This document shows, in pieces, positions 1 through 24,511 of a DNA stretch of 27,636 nt (position 1 is its first letter; the number at the start of each line of letters is the position of its first letter). Origin of the DNA: a virus; IMG/VR virus record IMGVR_UViG_3300042887_001308, positions 1-27,636 of that record; one strand, written 5' to 3'. The position numbers and the translations under genes were made by a program. The notes beneath the pieces are model-generated. The model was not told the DNA's origin, did no database searches, and saw only the letters and a list, made by a program, of their open reading frames with translations.

Positions 1-884
1 GTGTAACTATTGTGATTCTAAAAGAGCATGATGAAAGATTTATGGCTCGTAAGAAATTAGAGGATGCATTTGGCAATAAGATTGATATTGTGGTGCTAGA
101 CAAACCAACGACAGGTCCTGCTGATACAGTTTATCAAGCAATCAAACGAGGCCGTGTCAATGTAAACTCACCATTACTGATTAAAGATTGTGATGGTTTT
201 TATCAGACAGAAGAAAAAGATGGTAATGTAATCTATATTGCTAAACTATCAAATCATCCACGAATCAGAACGGCTGGTGCCAAGAGTTATACACTTACAA
301 ACGAACAAGGCATTATCAACTCTGTTGTAGAAAAAAAGATTGTGAGTGACCATTTCTGTGTAGGTGGTTATCAGTTTGAAACCGCACAAAGTTTTCTGGA
401 TGCATTTGATAACTTAAAAATTTCTGGAGAAATATTTGTATCAAACATTGTAGATTACATGATTCTACAAGGCAGTTTATTCTTTGAGAGTGAAGTAGAA
501 AACTTTATTGATGTTGGTGTTGCTGATGATTGGTTCGATTACAATAACAAACCAACTTATTTCTGCGATATCGATGGCACAATTGTTAAATCAAAGTGGG
601 ACTATTACGAACCAGATGATGTATTGTGGGATAATGTAACTACTCTTTTAAATGAAAAGAAAAGAGGTTGTAAAATTATATTTACAACTGCTCGCAAAGA
701 AAAACATCGTAAAATTACAACGAGCCTTTTAGAAATGCTAGGTTTTGGTGATTGTCAATTAATCATGGAAGTTCATCACGCCAAGAGAATATTAATTAAT
801 GATTATGCGAATTCAAATCCATACCCAAGTGCTATTGCTATCAATCTTAAACGAGATAGTGAAGATTTGGGAGATTTGATTTGA
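1..884 (+). CDS. nucleotidyltransferase-HAD phosphatase fusion, 5' partial
   Basis: The reading frame is open to the left edge (first full codon at 3), so the true start lies upstream; GTG 12 is only the first internal start codon. Counting from GTG 12, residues 1 to about 170 look like the back half of a sugar-phosphate nucleotidyltransferase: an SPLLIKDCDGFY strand with an Asp pair typical of metal binding, then an FCVGGYQF segment. Residues from about 183 form a HAD-type phosphatase, with the nucleophile motif DIDGT at 186-190, a TTAR motif II and an INDYA acidic motif near the end. Such fusions occur in capsule and LPS clusters and would both activate and dephosphorylate sugar phosphates. 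The downstream genes make sugar-nucleotide work likely. Substrate cannot be told, and the catalytic N-terminus is outside the window. Confidence 0.8.
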   Translation, partial: VTIVILKEHDERFMARKKLEDAFGNKIDIVVLDKPTTGPADTVYQAIKRGRVNVNSPLLIKDCDGFYQTEEKDGNVIYIAKLSNHPRIRTAGAKSYTLTNEQGIINSVVEKKIVSDHFCVGGYQFETAQSFLDAFDNLKISGEIFVSNIVDYMILQGSLFFESEVENFIDVGVADDWFDYNNKPTYFCDIDGTIVKSKWDYYEPDDVLWDNVTTLLNEKKRGCKIIFTTARKEKHRKITTSLLEMLGFGDCQLIMEVHHAKRILINDYANSNPYPSAIAINLKRDSEDLGDLI

Positions 885-1897
885 ACATTCTAATTACTGG
901 TGGTGCAGGTGGTATTGGTTCAACACTAGCACTATTACTGACACAAAAAGGCCACAAAGTTGTTGCCTATGATAATCTAAACAATGGTTATTTGGATAAT
1001 TTAAAAGAAAATGGTGTTTTCTTTTGCCGTTTTGAAAGCGGTGATATACGAGATACAGATTTTTTACAAGAAGTAATTGTAAGAGAGAACATCGAAAAAG
1101 TAATTCATCTTGCAGCTATTACTGCTTTGCCTGTTGCAGAATCAGACCCATACGAATGTTTAAGTGTCAATGTTGCAGGCACAGCTTCAGTATTGAAGGC
1201 CGCTAAATTTGTAAATGCACAGGTCATTGTTGCTAGCACATCTGCAATCTATGAAAACAATGAATCTGCTGATGCACCATTTAAAGAACAGATTGAAGTC
1301 AAACCAAGATTGATGTATCCACTTTCAAAGAAGTTGATGGAAGAAGTTGTTCATGCTTTCGATAAGAATTATGGCATTGATTATACAATACTGAGATTCT
1401 TCAATGTATTTGGTCCAAGGCAAGATATACACCGCAAATCACCACCGCTTATTAATTACATTGTGCGTGAGGTAAAGAATGGCCGTGAGCCTGTATTCTA
1501 CTCTGACGGCAAACAACAACGGGATTATGTCCATGTTGATGATGTGGTAACAATGATTGAGAAATGCTTATCACATCCAAATGCATTGGGCCAAACTTTT
1601 AACCTTTGTACCACCACATTAACCTCAGTAAGAGATATTATTGGTTTTGCTGAACAGGCATTTTCCATGGAAATTAAACACTCATTTTTGCCTGCAAAAG
1701 AGTTCTGGTCAGAGTATAATGAGCTTCACTCTGGTGAAAAGCCAATTAAGAAAACAGTATTAGAACATGAGGTAAATAAGTTTGCCTTGGGTTCAAACGA
1801 GTTGGCAAAGCAAGTGATTGGTTGGGAACCAAATAAAAATATTAGTGAATTGATGGTCGATACAATGAGAAAGAATTATGAGCTTTATTCCAAGTAA
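881..1897 (+). CDS. NAD-dependent epimerase/dehydratase (extended SDR)
   Basis: A 338-residue extended short-chain dehydrogenase/reductase acting on a nucleotide sugar. The Rossmann dinucleotide motif GGAGGIG lies at 7-13, an Asp at 31 ends the second strand as in NAD-binding members, and the catalytic pair is Tyr146/Lys150 (YPLSK) with Ser/Thr at 119-121. The active-site strand reads ASTSAIY, without the Asp-Glu pair of 4,6-dehydratases, so a C4 epimerase of the GalE/WbpP type fits better than a dehydratase. The start is a TTG whose last two bases open the TGA stop of the previous gene (TTGA). It is the only start that keeps the Rossmann N-terminus intact. It overlaps the next gene by 20 bases. 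The exact sugar is unknown. Confidence 0.88.
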   Translation: MNILITGGAGGIGSTLALLLTQKGHKVVAYDNLNNGYLDNLKENGVFFCRFESGDIRDTDFLQEVIVRENIEKVIHLAAITALPVAESDPYECLSVNVAGTASVLKAAKFVNAQVIVASTSAIYENNESADAPFKEQIEVKPRLMYPLSKKLMEEVVHAFDKNYGIDYTILRFFNVFGPRQDIHRKSPPLINYIVREVKNGREPVFYSDGKQQRDYVHVDDVVTMIEKCLSHPNALGQTFNLCTTTLTSVRDIIGFAEQAFSMEIKHSFLPAKEFWSEYNELHSGEKPIKKTVLEHEVNKFALGSNELAKQVIGWEPNKNISELMVDTMRKNYELYSK

Positions 1898-2585
1898 AAA
1901 TCTATTTTTAGTTACCTCTGCTTTAGACACAGGCATTGGCATTATTAATCCAAAAGATAGATTAGACCAGACAATTGAAACACTAGAAAATCTAAAACAA
2001 AAACTACCTGATGCTCATATCATATTGGTTGATGGTTCACCAAACAAAGTATCAGAAGAAACTAAACAAAAAATATCAGAGTATTGTCAGGCTATTTTTT
2101 GGAATGACCCCGATATTTTTGCGATGGCTTCTTCTGGTCGCAAAAGTGAAGCAGAAATTATTATGGTGTTTAAAACACTTTTGTTATTTAAACAGAATCA
2201 ACATCTAATGAAATTGTTTCATGGTGTAAAAAGAATATTTAAATACTCTGCTCGTTCTGTGTTGAATGATAACTTTGATATAACAAAGTATGATAATCTT
2301 TATGGCCGTTATGTTTTCAAAACTGCAATACCATCTTGGATGGATGAAAACAGAAAAAGAAATGTTACTGACCATCTTTACATCACAAGGTTTTATTCTT
2401 TGTGTCCGTCATTACTAGATAATTACTTGCAGACATTACAACCAATACTAAACAATGTGATTCAACATGGCATCGATACAGAACACTCACATTATCTGTG
2501 CCTAGATAGAAGATTGGTTACAGAGTTTGATACTCTTGGCGTTGAAGGCATTATGGGTGGCACAGGATTGAAAGAGACATATTAA
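1878..2585 (+). CDS. possible glycosyltransferase-like protein
   Basis: A 235-residue soluble protein that I do not recognise with certainty. The N-terminal half has an alternating strand/helix pattern (LFLVTSALDTG, then RLDQTIETLENL, then HIILVDGS) like the first part of a GT-A-type transferase. The middle segment FKYSARSVLNDNFD resembles the acceptor-side strand of such proteins. No clear DxD metal motif is present. The ATG start lies 20 bases inside the SDR gene and the stop overlaps the next ATG (TAATG), so it is translationally coupled to the sugar genes. It could transfer the sugar made by its neighbours, but this rests on context and faint similarity. Confidence 0.6.
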   Translation: MSFIPSKNLFLVTSALDTGIGIINPKDRLDQTIETLENLKQKLPDAHIILVDGSPNKVSEETKQKISEYCQAIFWNDPDIFAMASSGRKSEAEIIMVFKTLLLFKQNQHLMKLFHGVKRIFKYSARSVLNDNFDITKYDNLYGRYVFKTAIPSWMDENRKRNVTDHLYITRFYSLCPSLLDNYLQTLQPILNNVIQHGIDTEHSHYLCLDRRLVTEFDTLGVEGIMGGTGLKETY

Positions 2586-3865
2586 TGATTGAAGATAAAA
2601 TTTTAGAATTAGTTCGTGAAGCAAAACCAAAGTATTTACAGAACTACGACAACTTTAAACCTGGTGAAGATTATGTCATGTATTCAGGTCAACTTTGGGA
2701 CGAAAACGAATTGGCTGGTGCCGTCAAATCTTTATTGACAGGCAAATGGATTTCTGCTGGCGAAAGAGTTGAACAGTTTCAAATTAAATTCTCAAAGCGT
2801 TACAATGTAAAAGCATCACACATGGTTAACTCCGGTTCATCTGCCAACTTGGTGATGATTGCTGGTGTTAAAAAACATTTAGGTTGGAACGATGGTGATG
2901 AGGTCATTGTTTCACCTGTTGGTTTTCCAACTACAATTGCACCATTGGTTCAGAACAATCTTAAACCAGTATTTGTTGATATTGAATTTGATACATTGAA
3001 CTTTGATGTAAATTTAATTGAACAAAAGATTACACCAAAAACTAAAGCAATCATCGTGTCTCCTGTCATGGCAAATCCACCTGACATGGACAAAATACAC
3101 GATATCTGTTACAGAAATAACATCGTATTGATTGGTGATAACTGTGATACACTAGGCACAAAGTGGAATGGAAAACTAATTACTGATTTGTATTATTGTT
3201 GGTCAACATCATTCTATCCTGCTCATCACATTTCTACTGGTGAAGGCGGTATGGTATCATCTAACGATACGGCTTTAATTGATACGGTCCGTTCGTTTAG
3301 TTGGTGGGGTAGAGATTGTTATTGTGTTGGTTCAAACAATCAATTGCCATGTGGCACCTGTGGTAATCGCTTTGACCGGTGGTTGCCAGGTTATGATGGC
3401 ATTATCGACCACAAGTATGTGTTTGCAACTATGGGTTATAACTTAAAGCCACTAGATTTACAAGGTGCAATTGGTCTAGCACAGTTAGAAAAAGCAGATT
3501 ACATTGATAACAAGCGTAGAGAACATAAAAAGAGATTAGAAAGTATTTTAAAGAAACATCTAATGATTCGTGTTCCTGATACCTTAGCAAAAGCAGACCC
3601 ATCTTGGTTTGGTGTTCCAATTATTTGTGAATCACAAAAACAAAAAGAAAAATTAGTAGCACATTTTGAAGCAAATAAAATTCAAACAAGAAATTATTTT
3701 GCAGGTAACATTCTGTTGCATCCAGGCTACAAACATTTAGACGATGCAATGGATTATCCATTAGCAAACAAAGCACTATCACATGTCTTTATTCTTGGTT
3801 GCCCTCCATTTTGGAATGATAGTGTTTTTGATTATATAGAAAGTGTGGTGAAAAATGTTAATTAA
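2585..3865 (+). CDS. rfbH: RfbH-type NDP-4-keto-6-deoxyhexose 3-dehydratase
   Basis: A 426-residue fold-type I PLP/PMP enzyme of the DegT/DnrJ/EryC1/StrS group. The position normally held by the PLP-binding Lys is His214 (SFYPAHHISTGEGG), as in the dehydratases E1/RfbH and ColD. A Cys187-x57-Cys245-x-Cys247 pattern plus Cys256 and Cys259 matches the [2Fe-2S] ligand arrangement of the E1/RfbH branch, ruling in RfbH over ColD. The DHKYVFATMGYNLKPLDLQ segment is also typical of RfbH. The family removes the C3 hydroxyl of CDP-4-keto-6-deoxyglucose, the committed step to 3,6-dideoxyhexoses of O-antigens. It needs electrons from an E3-type reductase, which is not in this window. Length is normal for the family, with no break. 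Confidence 0.9.
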   Translation: MIEDKILELVREAKPKYLQNYDNFKPGEDYVMYSGQLWDENELAGAVKSLLTGKWISAGERVEQFQIKFSKRYNVKASHMVNSGSSANLVMIAGVKKHLGWNDGDEVIVSPVGFPTTIAPLVQNNLKPVFVDIEFDTLNFDVNLIEQKITPKTKAIIVSPVMANPPDMDKIHDICYRNNIVLIGDNCDTLGTKWNGKLITDLYYCWSTSFYPAHHISTGEGGMVSSNDTALIDTVRSFSWWGRDCYCVGSNNQLPCGTCGNRFDRWLPGYDGIIDHKYVFATMGYNLKPLDLQGAIGLAQLEKADYIDNKRREHKKRLESILKKHLMIRVPDTLAKADPSWFGVPIICESQKQKEKLVAHFEANKIQTRNYFAGNILLHPGYKHLDDAMDYPLANKALSHVFILGCPPFWNDSVFDYIESVVKNVN

Positions 3866-4043
3866 AGAAGAAAACGAATGCCGTTTATCGGTCATTAAAA
3901 CAGAAGTAAAAAATCCAGAAGGTTATACACAGATAACCTTAAATCGTGAAATTTTGAAAGACGGAAAAGTAATATCATATAATAAATTTGATATGTTTCT
4001 AACAACAGAAGAAATTTGTTCTCTCGTCAAAGCAATAGCATGA
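3855..4043 (+). CDS. small hypothetical protein
   Basis: A 62-residue protein with no motif I recognise. It reads as a compact, soluble, mixed beta/alpha sequence rich in Glu and Lys, ending in a helix (TTEEICSLVKAIA). The ATG lies 11 bases before the end of the rfbH-like gene, and its TGA stop overlaps the next ATG (ATGA). That tight coupling on both sides is the main reason to accept it as a gene. Confidence 0.6.
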   Translation: MLIKEENECRLSVIKTEVKNPEGYTQITLNREILKDGKVISYNKFDMFLTTEEICSLVKAIA

Positions 4044-4852
4044 TACAAGTATTTGGTGGTTCTGGCTTCGTTGGTTCTGAATTTGTTAAACAGAATCCTG
4101 GTTGTATAGTAAATGCTCGTGATGATTATAAGGTAAAAACTTATGACATTCTTTACATGATTTCTACTGTAACCAACTATAATGTCAAAACAGACCCATA
4201 TATTGACATTGACACCAATCTAACCACTTTGATGAGGGTGTTAGAACAATGTAGAGATTCACACCTGACATTCAACTTTATTAGTTCGTGGTTTGTTTAT
4301 GGTGAAACTGAAATGCCTGCAACTGAAGAATCGAATTGTTATCCAAATGGATTCTATTCAATTACTAAACGCTGTGCAGAGCAATTACTAATCTCTTATT
4401 GCGAAACATTTAAGATTAAGCATCGTATTCTTAGATTGGCCAATGTTGCAGGTTATGGTGATAAAAAGGCCTCACCACAAAAAAACGCACTTCAACATAT
4501 GATTAATGAATTGAAGGCAGGCCGTGATGTAAATGTATATGATGGTGGCAATCTATATCGTGATTATATTCATGTAAGTGATGCTGCTCGAGCAATCAAA
4601 TTAATCATGGAAAAAGGTGAAATCAACACCATCTATAATGTTGGCAATGGCAAACCTTTATTGTTTAAAGATATGATTGAGTATGCTAAAGAATTAATTG
4701 GTGGCGAAGGCAAATTAAACCCAATTGAAATACCACAGTTTCATAGAACGGTTCAGGTTCGTAGTATGTGGATGCTTAGTGATAAATTAAAATCTCTAGG
4801 TTATGAACCACAATACAATATGGAAGCAATCATTGAAGATATGGTGCGATGA
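4040..4852 (+). CDS. NAD(P)-dependent sugar reductase/epimerase (extended SDR)
   Basis: A 270-residue extended SDR. The start is ATG 4040, which overlaps the previous stop (ATGA) and places the Rossmann motif GGSGFVG at residues 6-12 as usual; an upstream in-frame TTG at 4016 would add eight residues with no role. Tyr106/Lys110 (YSITK) and the SSWFVYG strand (82-88) complete the catalytic set. There is no 4,6-dehydratase Asp-Glu signature. Lying two genes after an RfbH-like dehydratase, it could be the reductase that finishes a dideoxysugar, as abequose/paratose synthases do, but many SDRs look alike and this role is an inference. It overlaps the next gene by ATGA. Confidence 0.85.
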   Translation: MIQVFGGSGFVGSEFVKQNPGCIVNARDDYKVKTYDILYMISTVTNYNVKTDPYIDIDTNLTTLMRVLEQCRDSHLTFNFISSWFVYGETEMPATEESNCYPNGFYSITKRCAEQLLISYCETFKIKHRILRLANVAGYGDKKASPQKNALQHMINELKAGRDVNVYDGGNLYRDYIHVSDAARAIKLIMEKGEINTIYNVGNGKPLLFKDMIEYAKELIGGEGKLNPIEIPQFHRTVQVRSMWMLSDKLKSLGYEPQYNMEAIIEDMVR

Positions 4853-5496
4853 ATCTTTGTGTGTATCAAGCATACTATGATGATGCTCAAGTAAAACATT
4901 TAGATGCCGCTTTTGTACCTTTCGACAATCGAAAGAATGAATCACCACATTTGCGTGAATATCCAATGTGGAAAAAGTTATATGAAAAACATGCTGGCTC
5001 AGATGTGTATTGGGGTCTCATGTCATGGCGCTGGCACGAAAAGACAAACCTAGCAGGTTATCAGTTCACATCTTGGATTGAAAATACTCCTGGCTATGAC
5101 TGTTATCATTTTGACCCATTCAAACATCTAAGTAACGAATACATAAACTTGTGGGTGCAAGGTGACCAATGGCACTCAGGTATGTTAGAGTTTGCTAATC
5201 GTTTATTTCCAAAACTAGGCATTACAGTTCGAGCCGAAGATTTACAATATCGACCAGAAGATTTTGGCACATGCAATTACTATGTTGGTAACAGTAAATA
5301 TTGGACAAGTTTGCTTAGCTTTATGGACGAATGTTTAGCGATTGCAAACCAAGATGAAATCATGCATAAGTATTTGTATGTTGATGGCAGAATGTATAAT
5401 GGCCATGTGATACCAAATTTTTCATTTGTTATGGAAAGATTATTTTCATTACATAACTATTTGAAACCAGAATACAAAGTAAAAAGATATGATTAA
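4849..5496 (+). CDS. unknown protein in sugar cluster, possibly glycosyltransferase-like
   Basis: A 215-residue soluble protein rich in aromatic residues (Trp and Tyr). Visible features are a segment VYWGLMSWRWHEKT (53-66), a later EDFGTCNYYVGNSKYW stretch and a C-terminal VMERLFSLHNYL helix. I recognise no catalytic motif with confidence. The ATG overlaps the previous stop (ATGA) and the end overlaps the oxygenase start by 8 bases, so it belongs to the same translation unit as the sugar genes. A transferase acting on the cluster product is plausible but unproven. Confidence 0.6.
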   Translation: MNLCVYQAYYDDAQVKHLDAAFVPFDNRKNESPHLREYPMWKKLYEKHAGSDVYWGLMSWRWHEKTNLAGYQFTSWIENTPGYDCYHFDPFKHLSNEYINLWVQGDQWHSGMLEFANRLFPKLGITVRAEDLQYRPEDFGTCNYYVGNSKYWTSLLSFMDECLAIANQDEIMHKYLYVDGRMYNGHVIPNFSFVMERLFSLHNYLKPEYKVKRYD

Positions 5497-6268
5497 CCAG
5501 TTTGATTACGATAAATTAAGTAAAGAATTCCAAGAGGCAAAACCATTTCGCCATTGTATTATTGATAACTTCTTTGAAGATATTACTGCATTGGATTTGT
5601 CTAATGAATTTCCCGATTACAATGACCCAAATATCTGGTCAGTTTATCGTAATGCAATTGAGAACAAAAAACTCACACCACATTGGGACTTATTTCCTGC
5701 CAAAACATATCAGGCATTTACTTTGATGAATACACCTGGATTTGTTGAAAGTGTTAGGCTTATCACCGGTATACCTGACCTTGTTGCGGATTATGGTATG
5801 CATGGTGGTGGTTGGCATATGCATGGTCGTGGTGGTAAATTAAACATGCACAAAGATTATTCTATTCATCCAAAACTTGGCATGGAAAGAAGAATTAATA
5901 TCATTATCTACATGACACCAGATTGGAAAGAAGAATGGAATGGTGGCCTCGAATTCTGGTCACACGATTCAGAAAAGAATCTACCAAAAGAATGTGTTAC
6001 CAAAGTTTACAATAAATTCAATCGTGCTGTCTTGTTTGATACCACACAGAATTCGTGGCATGGTCTTCCAACAGAAATTGTATGTCCAGAAGGTGTCTAT
6101 CGTAAATCTTTGGCCATCTATTATATCTCTAAACCAAGACGAGGTGTGGAGACCCATGACCGAGCATATTTTGCACCCACCGCAGAGCAGGCAAATAATG
6201 AGGAAATACTCGATTTGATTAAAAAAAGGTCGAGTTCTAAGACCTCTGGTGAAGTTTACAGAACATAA
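5489..6268 (+). CDS. 2OG-Fe(II) oxygenase (prolyl 4-hydroxylase-like)
   Basis: A 259-residue 2-oxoglutarate/Fe(II)-dependent dioxygenase. The facial triad is visible: His121-x-Asp123 (MHKDYS) and distal His191 (SWHGLP), followed by Arg205 in the segment RKSLAIYYI, which would bind 2-oxoglutarate. INIIIYMTPDW and GGLEFW are the usual double-stranded beta-helix strands before and between the ligands. Such oxygenases are common in T4-like aquatic phages, often in glycan or structural gene clusters. The substrate may be a sugar, a protein side chain or a base, and the sequence does not say which. It closes the sugar block: its stop TAA overlaps a late-promoter motif for the next gene. Confidence 0.88.
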   Translation: MINQFDYDKLSKEFQEAKPFRHCIIDNFFEDITALDLSNEFPDYNDPNIWSVYRNAIENKKLTPHWDLFPAKTYQAFTLMNTPGFVESVRLITGIPDLVADYGMHGGGWHMHGRGGKLNMHKDYSIHPKLGMERRINIIIYMTPDWKEEWNGGLEFWSHDSEKNLPKECVTKVYNKFNRAVLFDTTQNSWHGLPTEIVCPEGVYRKSLAIYYISKPRRGVETHDRAYFAPTAEQANNEEILDLIKKRSSSKTSGEVYRT

Positions 6269-6305: not shown

Positions 6306-8837
6306 ATGAGATTTACTGATTTTCTGCAAGAGCAGAAAGAAAAACATGCGGTAATGGCATTTGGGCGTATGAACCCAATTACTGTTGGCCATGAAAAATT
6401 AGTCAATAAGGTCAAAGAAATTGCTGACAAAGTAGGCGGTTCAGCACATATTGTAGTTTCTCATTCACAAGACCCTAAGAAAAATCCTCTCAGTCCTTCG
6501 CAAAAACTTAAGCATGCCAAGCGTGCCTTCTCTGGCGTCAATGTATCAGCCTCAGATTCTTCTGCACCAAACTTTCTAGCACAAGCAGCCAAATTACATA
6601 AAGCCGGTGTAACTCATTTACACATGGTTGGCGGCCAAGACCGTGTAGATGAATACCATAAACTATTACACAAATACAATGGTGTAAAAGGGCCACATGG
6701 TTCTTTTAATTTCAAAAAGATTGAAGTTCATTCTGCTGGTGACCGTGACCCGGATGCCGAAGGTGTAGAAGGTATGTCCGCAAGTAAAATGCGTGAACAT
6801 GCTGCAAATGGTAACTTCAAAGAATTCCGTAAAGGTGTGCCGTCAAAAATGACCGATGCACACGCAAAAGAAATGTATAACCATGTTCGACAAGGCATGG
6901 GTGTCAATGAATCAATTGATGAAGATTTTGAAACCTTGCTGGTTGAAGGTGTGCATGACCAAGCAATTTTCAAAGCGGTGTTTCTTGCTGGTGGTCCAGG
7001 TTCTGGTAAAGATTATGTGCTTGATAACACATTACAAGGTCATGGTCTTACAGAAATCAATTCAGACAAAGCATTAGAGTTTTTGATGGACAAATCAGGT
7101 TTAGATAAAACCATGCCATCATCTGAACAAGAGAAACGAGATGCGGTTCGTGGTCGTGCAAAGAGCATGACAGAGTTACGCCAACGCCTTGCACTTCTTG
7201 GTCGCAATGGTTTAATTATCAATGGCACAGGTGATGACCATGAAAAGATTGGTCGTATTAAAAGCCGCTTAGAAGAAATTGGTTATGATACTTCTATGAT
7301 TATGGTAAACACCGATGATGAAGTATCAAAACAAAGAAACATAGAACGAGGCACTCGTGGTGGTCGCACCGTGCCAGAAGATATTCGTAAGCAAAAATGG
7401 GACGCCGTGCAAGCAGCAAGACCAGAACTTGCTAAGATGTTTGGTAACAAATACATGGAGTTTGACAATTCACAAGATTTGCGCCAAGCACCACCTGATG
7501 TTGTTAAAGCCAAAAAAGATGAGATGCTCGAACTCTTTAAAAATGTTAAAGCGTTTGTTGCAGAACCACCTTCATCAGAAGCAGCCTCAATGTGGGTTGC
7601 ACACGAATTAGATGTATCAGATAAATTGCCTGTACCAAAAGGTGGCGCAGAATTAACACCACACCCAAGTTCAAATGCTGCACAAGAAGCACGCAACATG
7701 GGATTACAATACTATGGGTTTGGTCGTTATGGTAAAAATGGCAAAGTTACACATCGCTCTATCCACGATAAACTTGTTGAGGTGCAGAAAGATGAACCAC
7801 AGCAACCAAATATTCCTGTGTCAGGCAGCTCAATGAAAAAGAAAACAGTCAACGAAGAATTTGAAGAGGTGTTTGCAGAGGACTTGCGTAAATGGTTTAG
7901 TAAGACAGACCCAGCAGGAGATTGGAAACGAATCAACAGTAAAGGTGAAGCAATTGGTCCTTGTGCAAGAGAACCTGGCGAACCAAAACCAAAATGCATG
8001 TCAAGAGCAAAGCGTGAATCTCTGACAAAACAAGAAAGAGCTGCAGCTGTAAGAGCTAAACGCAAACACGACCCAAATCCAGAACGCAAAGGTGCACCAA
8101 TTAATGTATCAAACTTTGGCAAAGGCAAACTATCAGAATCATATTCATTGTCTGATTCTGGTGCTTTAAACCTATTACTACTTGGTACAAACATAGACGA
8201 AATTAATTACGATAATTTTGAAGAAGAAAAACAACCTAAAATCCTTAAAGATAAAACAGGTAAAATAAAAACTTTCATGCTACGCAGAGCCGCAGCAAGA
8301 GAAGCACATACCATGAATGGTACCGTAATGCCATATAAGAATGGATATGTAATTAAATTAAATGAGGAGAATCAAAATGTTTCAAGCACTAATCAACTTA
8401 CTAAAAATCAAACCGAAAGAGCAACCAAAATCGAATCCTTCGGAAGATTCAGCGAAAGTGACCGAAGTTTCAACACCGAAGGTGTCGCAGAACTCACAAC
8501 CGGTCAAGAATACTCAAGCGCCGAAGGCATCACCGGCCCAGCAAACCAAGAAGCCACAGGGTCAACAAAAATCACACTCTCAAAAATCAGGCAACGCCAA
8601 AAAGAAAAAGTAAAAGAATCTATCGATAAAGGTATTGAACCTGGTTTGTCAATGGGCCAAAGTGGTGAAAACTTCTCTCGTAAAGGTTTAAAAGTAAAAC
8701 AAAATGTTAAACCTTTCGAAGAAGCAATTGGTGCTGGCGGTGAAGATGCTACATCAATGAGTGATTTTAATGATAATGTATTGAAACAAAAAGGTATCAA
8801 TATCAAAACATTTAAAGCAAAGAGACCAATAGGATGA
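6306..8837 (+). CDS. capsid-targeted nucleotidyltransferase/P-loop kinase polyprotein
   Basis: An 843-residue modular protein. Residues 1-9, MRFTDFLQE, resemble the T4 capsid-targeting peptide and end in a gp21-like L-x-E cleavage site. Residues about 14-195 are a cytidylyltransferase-like nucleotidyltransferase, with GRMNPITVGHEKL as the HxGH-like loop and SASKMREH as the second signature. A linker at 200-214 (IDE at 204-206, LVE at 212-214) leads to a P-loop kinase with GGPGSGKD (229-236) and an INSDK motif, similar to zeta-toxin or polynucleotide-kinase folds. After FAE at 523-525 comes a small Cys-containing basic module (DLRKWFSK to about 598), then KTFMLRRAAAREAHTMNG and a C-terminal SMGQSGENFSRKG module. 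A perfect GGAGG lies just upstream. Residues 691-769 coincide with an out-of-frame ORF. Confidence 0.85.
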   Translation: MRFTDFLQEQKEKHAVMAFGRMNPITVGHEKLVNKVKEIADKVGGSAHIVVSHSQDPKKNPLSPSQKLKHAKRAFSGVNVSASDSSAPNFLAQAAKLHKAGVTHLHMVGGQDRVDEYHKLLHKYNGVKGPHGSFNFKKIEVHSAGDRDPDAEGVEGMSASKMREHAANGNFKEFRKGVPSKMTDAHAKEMYNHVRQGMGVNESIDEDFETLLVEGVHDQAIFKAVFLAGGPGSGKDYVLDNTLQGHGLTEINSDKALEFLMDKSGLDKTMPSSEQEKRDAVRGRAKSMTELRQRLALLGRNGLIINGTGDDHEKIGRIKSRLEEIGYDTSMIMVNTDDEVSKQRNIERGTRGGRTVPEDIRKQKWDAVQAARPELAKMFGNKYMEFDNSQDLRQAPPDVVKAKKDEMLELFKNVKAFVAEPPSSEAASMWVAHELDVSDKLPVPKGGAELTPHPSSNAAQEARNMGLQYYGFGRYGKNGKVTHRSIHDKLVEVQKDEPQQPNIPVSGSSMKKKTVNEEFEEVFAEDLRKWFSKTDPAGDWKRINSKGEAIGPCAREPGEPKPKCMSRAKRESLTKQERAAAVRAKRKHDPNPERKGAPINVSNFGKGKLSESYSLSDSGALNLLLLGTNIDEINYDNFEEEKQPKILKDKTGKIKTFMLRRAAAREAHTMNGTVMPYKNGYVIKLNEENQNVSSTNQLTKNQTERATKIESFGRFSESDRSFNTEGVAELTTGQEYSSAEGITGPANQEATGSTKITLSKIRQRQKEKVKESIDKGIEPGLSMGQSGENFSRKGLKVKQNVKPFEEAIGAGGEDATSMSDFNDNVLKQKGINIKTFKAKRPIG
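8364..8369 (+). promoter_or_regulatory. internal Shine-Dalgarno GAGGAG
   Basis: GAGGAG lies 7 bases before ATG 8377 inside the 843-residue gene, in another frame. It is stronger than most ribosome binding sites in the window, although in the long frame it also encodes ordinary residues (Asn-Glu-Glu). Confidence 0.4.
8377..8613 (+). CDS. possible out-of-frame nested gene, basic low-complexity protein
   Basis: A 78-residue ORF entirely inside the 843-residue gene, in the +1 frame. It starts at ATG 8377 behind GAGGAG. The product begins with a short amphipathic segment (MFQALINLLKIKPKEQ), continues as a Ser/Pro/Gln/Lys-rich tail and ends in GNAKKKK. Against it: it uses CCG, TCG and GCG codons that are rare elsewhere here, and the long frame remains open throughout. 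In favour: the ribosome site, and the long frame being unusually rich in C-ending codons exactly over this stretch, as expected if both frames are constrained. It could be a true nested gene or an ancestral gene overprinted by read-through. Confidence 0.35.
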   Translation: MFQALINLLKIKPKEQPKSNPSEDSAKVTEVSTPKVSQNSQPVKNTQAPKASPAQQTKKPQGQQKSHSQKSGNAKKKK

Positions 8838-22829: not shown

Positions 22830-23819
22830 ATGGTAAAGAAAAAATATAATTTAACAGAAGATAGAACACACTTTAAACCTTTCTCATATCCATGGGCATA
22901 TGAGGCGTGGCTAAAGCACGAACAAGCACATTGGTTACATAGTGAAGTTCCTATGTTAGAGGATGTAAAAGATTGGAAAAATAAACTTACAAAAGAAGAA
23001 AAACAATTTCTTACACATATTTTTAGATTCTTTACACAAGGCGATATCGATGTGGCAGGTGGTTATGTAAAGAATTATCTACCATATTTCCCACAGCCAG
23101 AAGTTCGCATGATGTTATTGGGCTTTGCTGCTCGTGAAGCACTTCATGTAGCTGCATATTCACATTTGATTGAGACACTAGGTCTACCAGAAACCATGTA
23201 TAATCAATTCATGGAATATGATGCTATGAGACAGAAGCATGACTATGTGCTAGATATCTCAAGCAAGAACACCACAAAAGAAAATACAGCAACACATATC
23301 GCTGTATTCTCTGCATTTACCGAAGGTATGCAATTGTTTAGTTCTTTCATTATGTTGCTGAATTTCCCACGCCATGGTAAAATGAAAGGTATGGGTCAAA
23401 TCGTTACATGGTCAATCGTAGATGAAACCATGCATACAGAGTCCATGATTAAATTGTTTAAAACATACATCCATGAAAACCAAGAAATTTGGAATGATGA
23501 TTTAAAATCTAAGATTTACACCATCGCCACACGCATGGTGGAACTAGAGGAGAAGTTTATTGATTTGGCATTTGAAATGGGTAAGATGGAAGACCTGACA
23601 GCCGAAGATGTAAAACAATACATTCGTTATATTGCTGACCGTAGATTGATTTCTATGGGCATGAAAGGTATCTTTAAAGTTAAAAAGAATCCGTTGCCAT
23701 GGGTTGAAGAAATGATTAACGCACCGATTCACGGTAACTTCTTTGAGAATCGTGTAACTGACTATGCAAAAGGCGCCTTGTCTGGTAATTGGGACGATGT
23801 ATGGGGTAAAGCAGCTTGA
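22830..23819 (+). CDS. nrdB: ribonucleotide reductase class I, beta subunit
   Basis: A 329-residue radical-generating small subunit. Diiron ligands and the radical Tyr are visible as Glu103-x2-His106-x3-Tyr110 (REALHVAAY), then Glu in FTEGMQLF and the Glu/His pair in DETMHTES. An early acidic ligand lies in QGDIDVAGG. It pairs with the NrdA encoded 3 bases upstream. The C-terminus ends NWDDVWGKAA. Its TGA stop overlaps the TTG start of the desaturase. Confidence 0.95.
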   Translation: MVKKKYNLTEDRTHFKPFSYPWAYEAWLKHEQAHWLHSEVPMLEDVKDWKNKLTKEEKQFLTHIFRFFTQGDIDVAGGYVKNYLPYFPQPEVRMMLLGFAAREALHVAAYSHLIETLGLPETMYNQFMEYDAMRQKHDYVLDISSKNTTKENTATHIAVFSAFTEGMQLFSSFIMLLNFPRHGKMKGMGQIVTWSIVDETMHTESMIKLFKTYIHENQEIWNDDLKSKIYTIATRMVELEEKFIDLAFEMGKMEDLTAEDVKQYIRYIADRRLISMGMKGIFKVKKNPLPWVEEMINAPIHGNFFENRVTDYAKGALSGNWDDVWGKAA

Positions 23820-24511
23820 TAGAATTAATCTATTTGCTTGTATGCACACACATTACCATTGTGTGTGTTACTCTTTTCCTACACAGAGGTCAAGCACACA
23901 GAGGCATTGAGTTTCATCCTGCCTTGCAACACTTCATGCGGTTTTGGTTATGGATGACCACAGGTATGGTCACTAAAGAATGGGTTGCTGTTCATCGTAA
24001 GCACCACGCAAACACGGACAAAAAGTATGACCCACATTCACCACTCAACGAAGGTCTATTAAAGATGTTAGTTGGTGGTGCATGGTTATATGCCAAGGCC
24101 GCAGAAGATAAGCAAATGGTAAAAATGTATGGTGCAGGAACGCCAGATGATTGGATGGAAAAGAATGTTTACAGTAAACACAGTAAAGTTGGTTTTACTT
24201 TATTGCTCATAATTAATACATTATTGTTTAATGGTTGGGGTATTGTTATATGGCTGATACAGATGGCCTGGATTCCATTTTGGGCTGCAGGCGTTATCAA
24301 TGGTGTTGGTCATTGTATTGGTTATCGTAATTGGAATACAAAAGATGAATCGAGAAACATTTTTCCTTTAGGCATACTCATTGGTGGTGAAGAACTACAT
24401 AATAACCATCATAACTCACCCGCTAGTACCAAACTAAGCGATAAGTGGTGGGAATTTGACATTGGTTGGATGTGGCTCTCATTATTTAAATTTTTAAGGT
24501 TAGCAAAATGA
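23816..24511 (+). CDS. fatty-acid (acyl-CoA type) desaturase
   Basis: A 231-residue integral-membrane desaturase. All three His boxes are present: H23-x4-H28 (HRGQAH), HRKHH at 60-64 and HNNHH at 195-199, plus His166 in INGVGHCIGY, giving the diiron site. Hydrophobic spans flank them. It would introduce a double bond (delta-9 type by similarity) into host acyl chains, altering membrane fluidity. The start is TTG, sharing TTGA with the nrdB stop, and gives a sensible N-terminus (MIELIYLLVC). It is somewhat shorter than typical bacterial enzymes but keeps every box. Host-derived metabolic gene by inference. Confidence 0.88.
   Translation: MIELIYLLVCTHITIVCVTLFLHRGQAHRGIEFHPALQHFMRFWLWMTTGMVTKEWVAVHRKHHANTDKKYDPHSPLNEGLLKMLVGGAWLYAKAAEDKQMVKMYGAGTPDDWMEKNVYSKHSKVGFTLLLIINTLLFNGWGIVIWLIQMAWIPFWAAGVINGVGHCIGYRNWNTKDESRNIFPLGILIGGEELHNNHHNSPASTKLSDKWWEFDIGWMWLSLFKFLRLAK

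Follow-up and report, generated by a model that had tools for sequence, protein, structure and literature searches.

A tailed-phage gene block pairs an iron–sulfur sugar 3-dehydratase, of a branch separate from ordinary RfbH, with a probable C4-keto-reductase

The Gene Block

The window, by which we mean the whole stretch of DNA analysed here, is the 27,636-base IMG/VR viral record IMGVR_UViG_3300042887_001308. It belongs to a tailed phage, as confirmed by genes for thymidylate synthase, both ribonucleotide reductase subunits, a primase, an endolysin and a virion structural protein. A megablast search of the window against phage genomes gave no match. The ribonucleotide reductase genes are followed by a fatty-acid-desaturase-like protein (23816-24511) with the histidine boxes HRGQAH, HRKHH and HNNHH.

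The genes of the block in the initial 6.3 kb are all encoded on the + strand, with overlaps or near-overlaps between neighbours (Table 1). The first of these is cut off by the contig start; its counterpart in a relative (L021, 7933-9147) has a weakly IspD-like N-terminus and a HAD C-terminus. The SDR that follows, whose PDB match 4zrm is a UDP-glucose 4-epimerase, was considered as the absent 4,6-dehydratase and ruled out, since it reads STSAIY instead of STDEVY, is without the Asp-Glu motif and resembles epimerases. ORFs similar in size to the 62-aa ORF occupy the equivalent position in many relatives. The SDR two ORFs downstream of the 3-dehydratase, which the earlier note had pointed out, is indeed present (SDR1). 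Its ORF was listed from a TTG at 4016, but the ATG at 4040 is the better start and overlaps the end of the small ORF, at 4043, as ATGA. Oxygenases of the PF13640 type are found near the enzyme gene in 27 loci.

Beyond the block, at 6306-8837, a cytidylyltransferase-like domain is fused to a zeta-toxin/AAA P-loop domain, a protein that lies downstream of the sugar genes in 47 loci. The domain was ruled out as RfbF, as TIGR02623 gives no match.

Table 1. Genes of the sugar block at the start of the window.
Position	Strand	Assignment	Evidence
12..884	+	Probable nucleotidyltransferase-HAD phosphatase fusion, truncated at contig start	Weak HAD match only (window copy)
881..1897	+	SDR, nucleotide-sugar 4-epimerase type	NCBIfam GalE-like, 140 bits; PDB 4zrm, E 3e-34
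1878..2585	+	Probable GT-A-fold glycosyltransferase, stops where the 3-dehydratase ORF starts	Predicted structure and Foldseek
2585..3865	+	Putative [2Fe-2S] NDP-4-keto-6-deoxyhexose 3-dehydratase, E1/SpnQ type, "x11" subfamily sister to RfbH	
3855..4043	+	Small ORF, 62 aa, overlaps 3-dehydratase and SDR1 genes	
4040..4852	+	SDR partner "SDR1", probable C4-keto-reductase	Pfam Epimerase; adjoins 3-dehydratase in relatives
4849..5496	+	Possible glycosyltransferase, GT-A-like	Predicted structure and one Foldseek match
5489..6268	+	2-oxoglutarate/Fe(II) oxygenase, closes the block	Pfam PF13640, E 3e-15

The 3-Dehydratase and Its Key Residues

The 3-dehydratase gene is an open frame of 426 aa that includes C187, H214-H215, C245, C247, C256 and C259, set in the motifs D185-N-C187-D, F210-Y-P-A-H214-H and W241-G-R-D-C245-Y-C247-x8-C256-x2-C259; the full cysteine motif reads C-x57-C-x-C-x11-C. 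In phmmer searches of the PDB, its top match is E1/RfbH (3bcx, E 3e-70, residues 22-420), and ColD (2gms) is found at E 1e-47. The protein also matches Pfam PF01041. Despite this match, it is not a PLP-dependent sugar aminotransferase of the DegT/DnrJ/EryC1/StrS kind, as H214 replaces the catalytic lysine.

The alignment to E1 is gapless across residues 121-223 with an offset of six, which places C187 on E1 C193 and H214 on E1 H220, while C245, C247 and C259 fall on E1 C251, C253 and C261. We take C193, C251, C253 and C261 to be the cluster ligands of E1, a numbering with which the alignment agrees. D185, C187, Y211, H214, E220, C245, C247 and C259 are invariant in all 86 viral rows, which stand for 85 distinct records because L001 repeats the window; this invariance indicates that the motif is not due to chance. 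C256, the other candidate for the fourth ligand, is kept in 81 of the 86 rows and was ruled out because it is not invariant while C259 is. The histidine that replaces the PLP lysine and the C187-x57-C245-x-C247 spacing of the [2Fe-2S] branch, both noticed earlier, are thus borne out, and C259 can be added as the fourth cysteine. Taken together, the sequence supports a [2Fe-2S]-type, PMP-dependent sugar 3-dehydratase that is paired with an SDR.

A Branch Separate from Ordinary RfbH

The window enzyme scores 365.4 bits with the NCBIfam RfbH model (NF011936), under the equivalog cut-off of 423, and the enzyme of a bacterial relative (L098) scores 354 bits. Identity to Salmonella RfbH is 35%. All 90 rows from viruses and the close bacterial loci have x11 between the third and fourth cysteines. 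None of 73 ordinary RfbH sequences does; the spacing there is x7 (68), x9 (4) or x10 (1). Further group-specific positions split the two sets beyond the length of this loop: the groups of the E1 family also differ by HT to PV at 160-161 and by D to W at 240.

A quick IQ-TREE tree with SH-aLRT support, which did not include SpnQ, was rooted with two cyanophage homologues that lack the cluster. In it, a single clade (97%; 100% without L100) unites the viral rows and five bacterial loci (L098-L102). The 37 ordinary RfbH sequences, Salmonella's among them, form the opposite side at 89%, and the x11 enzymes group with E1/RfbH on a 100% branch against the two outgroup homologues. The x11 clade is made up mostly of phages, the five bacterial loci being the remainder.

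It is well supported by these comparisons that the window enzyme lies outside the RfbF/RfbG-linked RfbH clade, in a distinct x11 subfamily that appears to be sister to RfbH. The earlier note had called the enzyme "RfbH-type", which is apt for a [2Fe-2S] 3-dehydratase that has an SDR and leads to a 3,6-dideoxyhexose, but not for RfbH proper, from which cut-off, clade and gene neighbours separate it. The phylogeny, a check of the kind that it proposed, keeps the enzyme in the 3-dehydratase branch with E1/RfbH, but outside the ordinary RfbH clade.

The SDR1 Partner and the Electron Donor

Of the 85 viral records, 83 have SDR1 or an orthologue of it, always on the strand of the enzyme gene and usually overlapping it, by a median of 13 bases. 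A gap separates it from the enzyme gene in L049 (0.7 kb) and in S-H68/RB11-B (3.7 kb). The two records that lack it are L016, which stops soon past the enzyme gene, and L084, a 642-kb phage that is the single clear case. SDR1 also adjoins the enzyme gene in four bacterial loci (L098, L099, L101 and L102). The protein keeps the GxxGFxG (GGSGFVG) and YxxxK (YSITK) motifs and lacks the dehydratase Asp-Glu motif, for which a 4-ketoreductase is the natural reading. SDR1 is thus a probable C4-keto-reductase, but it may be an epimerase instead.

Among 40 viral records, which may be fragments, no E3 (PF00175) was found over cut-off, and the only Fer2 proteins were ferredoxins in the two cyanophage records. 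Since no E3 is encoded, the electrons probably come from host ferredoxin or flavodoxin reductases; in the cyanophages, the phage-encoded ferredoxin is perhaps the donor.

Upstream Genes and the Nucleotide

The earlier note had recognised no E3 reductase, glucose-1-phosphate cytidylyltransferase or 4,6-dehydratase in the window, and profile searches agree for E3, RfbF and RfbG. It had also suggested looking upstream in the genome for rfbF, rfbG and E3 homologues. In the 40 viral records, as with E3, neither RfbF nor RfbG was found over cut-off; these records include possible fragments, but also a complete 210-kb cyanophage and contigs as long as 136 and 162 kb. Ordinary RfbH genes in the bacterial loci examined most often have RfbF (37 loci) and RfbG (32 loci) as neighbours, and 11 loci have a reductase-like gene there, which has no NCBIfam match but resembles E3 at the start of its sequence. 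None of these three was seen beside an x11 enzyme in the records examined.

The x11 enzymes keep different company. RmlB is found above the curated cut-off in 7 of the 40 viral records and just under it in a single-cell marine virus. Many phages encode a divergent dehydratase that scores about 235 bits with the RmlB model (cut-off 365), far above its score with the RfbG model. In four records an RmlB-type gene runs into the 3-dehydratase gene, sharing 4 bases with it in L051, L073 and L074 and 14 in L059; the gene order in all four is RmlB type, 3-dehydratase, SDR1. Viral record L071 has both RmlB and RmlA. In two Bacteriovoracaceae loci (L098 and L102), RmlA and RmlB are divergent from the SDR1-enzyme pair, and L098 carries RfbF/RfbG as well, some 20 kb off. 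A Nitrosomonadaceae genome (L099) holds both paralogues on different contigs: an ordinary RfbH, 71% identical to that of Salmonella, which adjoins RfbF-RfbG, and an x11 enzyme, which adjoins SDR1. RfbF/RfbG were not found over cut-off in the assemblies of L100, L101 and L102, which may be incomplete.

The RmlB/RmlA neighbourhoods of the x11 enzymes and the absence of RfbF/RfbG beside them point, as indirect evidence, to dTDP-4-keto-6-deoxyglucose as the substrate. No dehydratase is seen in the window or in the two records closest to it in gene order, which have the same upstream genes (L023 and L024), so this assignment draws on other relatives and presupposes a host pathway. dTDP-4-keto-6-deoxyglucose is a common bacterial intermediate of rhamnose synthesis, and the dehydratase-less window and its look-alikes fit a supply by host rhamnose enzymes. 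The earlier expectation that the upstream steps are supplied from outside the window is retained, but the score under the RfbH cut-off, the separate clade and the RmlB/RmlA neighbours make the host's common rmlA and rmlB more likely as the missing genes than rfbF and rfbG.

The enzyme could instead be an ordinary RfbH, a CDP-4-keto-6-deoxyglucose 3-dehydratase that relies on host RfbF/RfbG and E3. RfbH is its nearest named family and E1 its nearest solved structure, the S-H68 copy is annotated that way (as CDP-4-dehydro-6-deoxy-D-glucose 3-dehydratase), and some genomes with x11 enzymes also carry RfbF/RfbG. We nevertheless consider this unlikely, given the score under the equivalog cut-off, a clade and a loop of its own, and neighbourhoods in which RfbF/RfbG never adjoin the x11 gene and RmlB/RmlA are found instead; the three assemblies with no RfbF/RfbG over cut-off point the same way.

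Glycosyltransferases and Other Sugar Genes

The proteins on either side of the enzyme-SDR1 pair have predicted structures of pLDDT 90.3 (upstream) and 92.9 (downstream). Foldseek matched the former best to glycogenin (1zct, E 3e-7) and then to other GT-A glycosyltransferases; the latter had a single match under E 0.001, the WbbM glycosyltransferase (6u4b, E 6e-4). Cyanophage orthologues of the enzyme are surrounded by many annotated glycosyltransferases. These glycosyltransferases and the predicted folds next door support transfer of the sugar onto a glycan, which may be that of the host surface, changed to exclude rivals as the earlier note suggested, or that of the virion.

Other sugar genes accompany the enzyme in relatives. 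In 28 viral loci within L037-L079 (e.g., L079:11459-12715), a TylC3-type sugar C-methyltransferase (Methyltransf_13/23/14) is found, usually directly upstream, which suggests a C-methylated dideoxy sugar in these phages. In 18 loci within L002-L028 (e.g., L028:7449-8612), a 3-dehydroquinate-synthase-like gene is found upstream, often with a sugar nucleotidyltransferase.

A Proposed Two-Enzyme Pathway

In the pathway that we propose, dTDP-4-keto-6-deoxyglucose would be provided by host RmlA/RmlB, or by the phage's own RmlB in relatives. The 3-dehydratase would bind PMP and a [2Fe-2S] cluster, and His214, rather than a lysine, would initiate C3 dehydration of the NDP-4-keto-6-deoxy-glucose. Electrons relayed by the cluster would then reduce the 3,4-glucoseen to NDP-4-keto-3,6-dideoxyhexose, by the mechanism of E1 and SpnQ, and SDR1 would reduce the C4 ketone to yield an NDP-3,6-dideoxyhexose, the nucleotide being most likely dTDP. 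The adjoining glycosyltransferase-fold proteins would move the sugar onto its glycan. We think it reasonably likely that the phage encodes such a two-enzyme module, using a host electron donor and serving the adjoining glycosyltransferases; its activity, nucleotide and product stereochemistry are what we infer from family, residues and neighbourhoods.

A different 4-keto nucleotide sugar (UDP-linked, GDP-linked or 2-deoxygenated) might be the substrate, with SDR1 acting as an epimerase or a reductase. Many relatives have only the divergent 4,6-dehydratase, together with further sugar genes (C-methyltransferase, DHQ-synthase-like, hexapeptide transferase). This reading is improbable, however, as the dTDP-glucose model gives the divergent dehydratase by far its best score and none of the annotated neighbours was noticed to be a 2,3-dehydratase. 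It is hard to credit that the protein has the PLP fold but has decayed or taken another role and lost 3-dehydratase activity: that activity is a prediction from sequence, but the catalytic and cluster residues are invariant over the 26 clusters (at 90% identity) of the viral homologue set, the reading frames are intact and the gene is coupled to SDR1.

Returning to the dTDP pathway, we hold it somewhat more probable than otherwise that the x11 enzymes are an apparently undescribed branch of iron–sulfur 3-dehydratases acting on dTDP-4-keto-6-deoxyglucose, and that two genes make up a route to dTDP-3,6-dideoxyhexose by which phages siphon off a host intermediate and host ferredoxin for a rare sugar. 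To our knowledge, the 3,6-dideoxyhexoses of O-antigens are otherwise only CDP- or GDP-linked. Paulomycin was considered as a precedent for a dTDP-3,6-dideoxyhexose and ruled out, as its sugar is 2,6-dideoxy. In a partial literature search, neither the x11 branch nor such a route turned up in any paper.

Hundreds of aquatic viral contigs carry this 3-dehydratase gene. Annotation pipelines name it RfbH, which implies a CDP pathway; if the dTDP branch is real, lists of viral "auxiliary metabolic genes" give the wrong pathway, and two genes would be enough to turn a metabolite very common in bacteria into a surface sugar. The E1 family would also offer a testable comparison of a substrate switch, in the loop length and at positions 160-161 and 240, for which the Nitrosomonadaceae paralogue pair is a natural control.

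Comparison with Known Systems

With E1/RfbH/DdhC/AscC (NF011936; PDB 3bcx, 3bb8), the window enzyme shares the fold family, the histidine for lysine, the four cluster cysteines and an alignment over the whole length. It differs in having x11 instead of x7 and in its context of SDR1 and RmlB instead of RfbF, RfbG and E3.

ColD, a GDP-4-keto-6-deoxymannose 3-dehydratase (PDB 2gms), has the same histidine for lysine and a related fold, but lacks the iron–sulfur cysteines that the window enzyme has. It has no iron–sulfur cluster and acts on a GDP sugar by a hydrolytic mechanism. Homologues also occur in the cyanophages S-CAM7 (L096, 6022-7155) and ACG-2014f (L097, 2926-4119). The former, named "CDP-4-keto-6-deoxy-D-glucose-3-dehydrase", has the HH motif and no cluster cysteine motif, and lies beside a GDP-mannose 4,6-dehydratase and a GDP-fucose synthase; it looks ColD-like (GDP-colitose type), and its annotated name is therefore probably wrong.

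SpnQ of spinosyn synthesis, a TDP-4-keto-2,6-dideoxyglucose 3-dehydratase, is E1-like by description rather than by a sequence comparison made here, and its substrate is already 2-deoxygenated. E1 and SpnQ both have the four-cysteine [2Fe-2S] motif and a histidine that replaces the lysine; E1 is re-reduced by E3 and SpnQ, whose substrate is TDP-linked, by ferredoxin or flavodoxin reductase pairs (PMC8987622).

Viral rfbH has been named among auxiliary metabolic genes (PMC10653327, PMC11295528); the gene name is the same, and the passages that list it discuss no subfamily, partner or nucleotide. A 2.6-kb unverified, unannotated fragment with an rfbH gene that is labelled as a Salmonella phage (L095, OR851175.1) is probably host DNA contamination.

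The window block was also compared with cyanophage sugar clusters (S-H68, S-B05, S-B43 and RB11-B; P-SSM2-type LPS clusters). These come from different phages and have no DNA-level match to the window, but S-H68/RB11-B hold a 56%-identical orthologue together with SDR1, an RmlB and glycosyltransferases.
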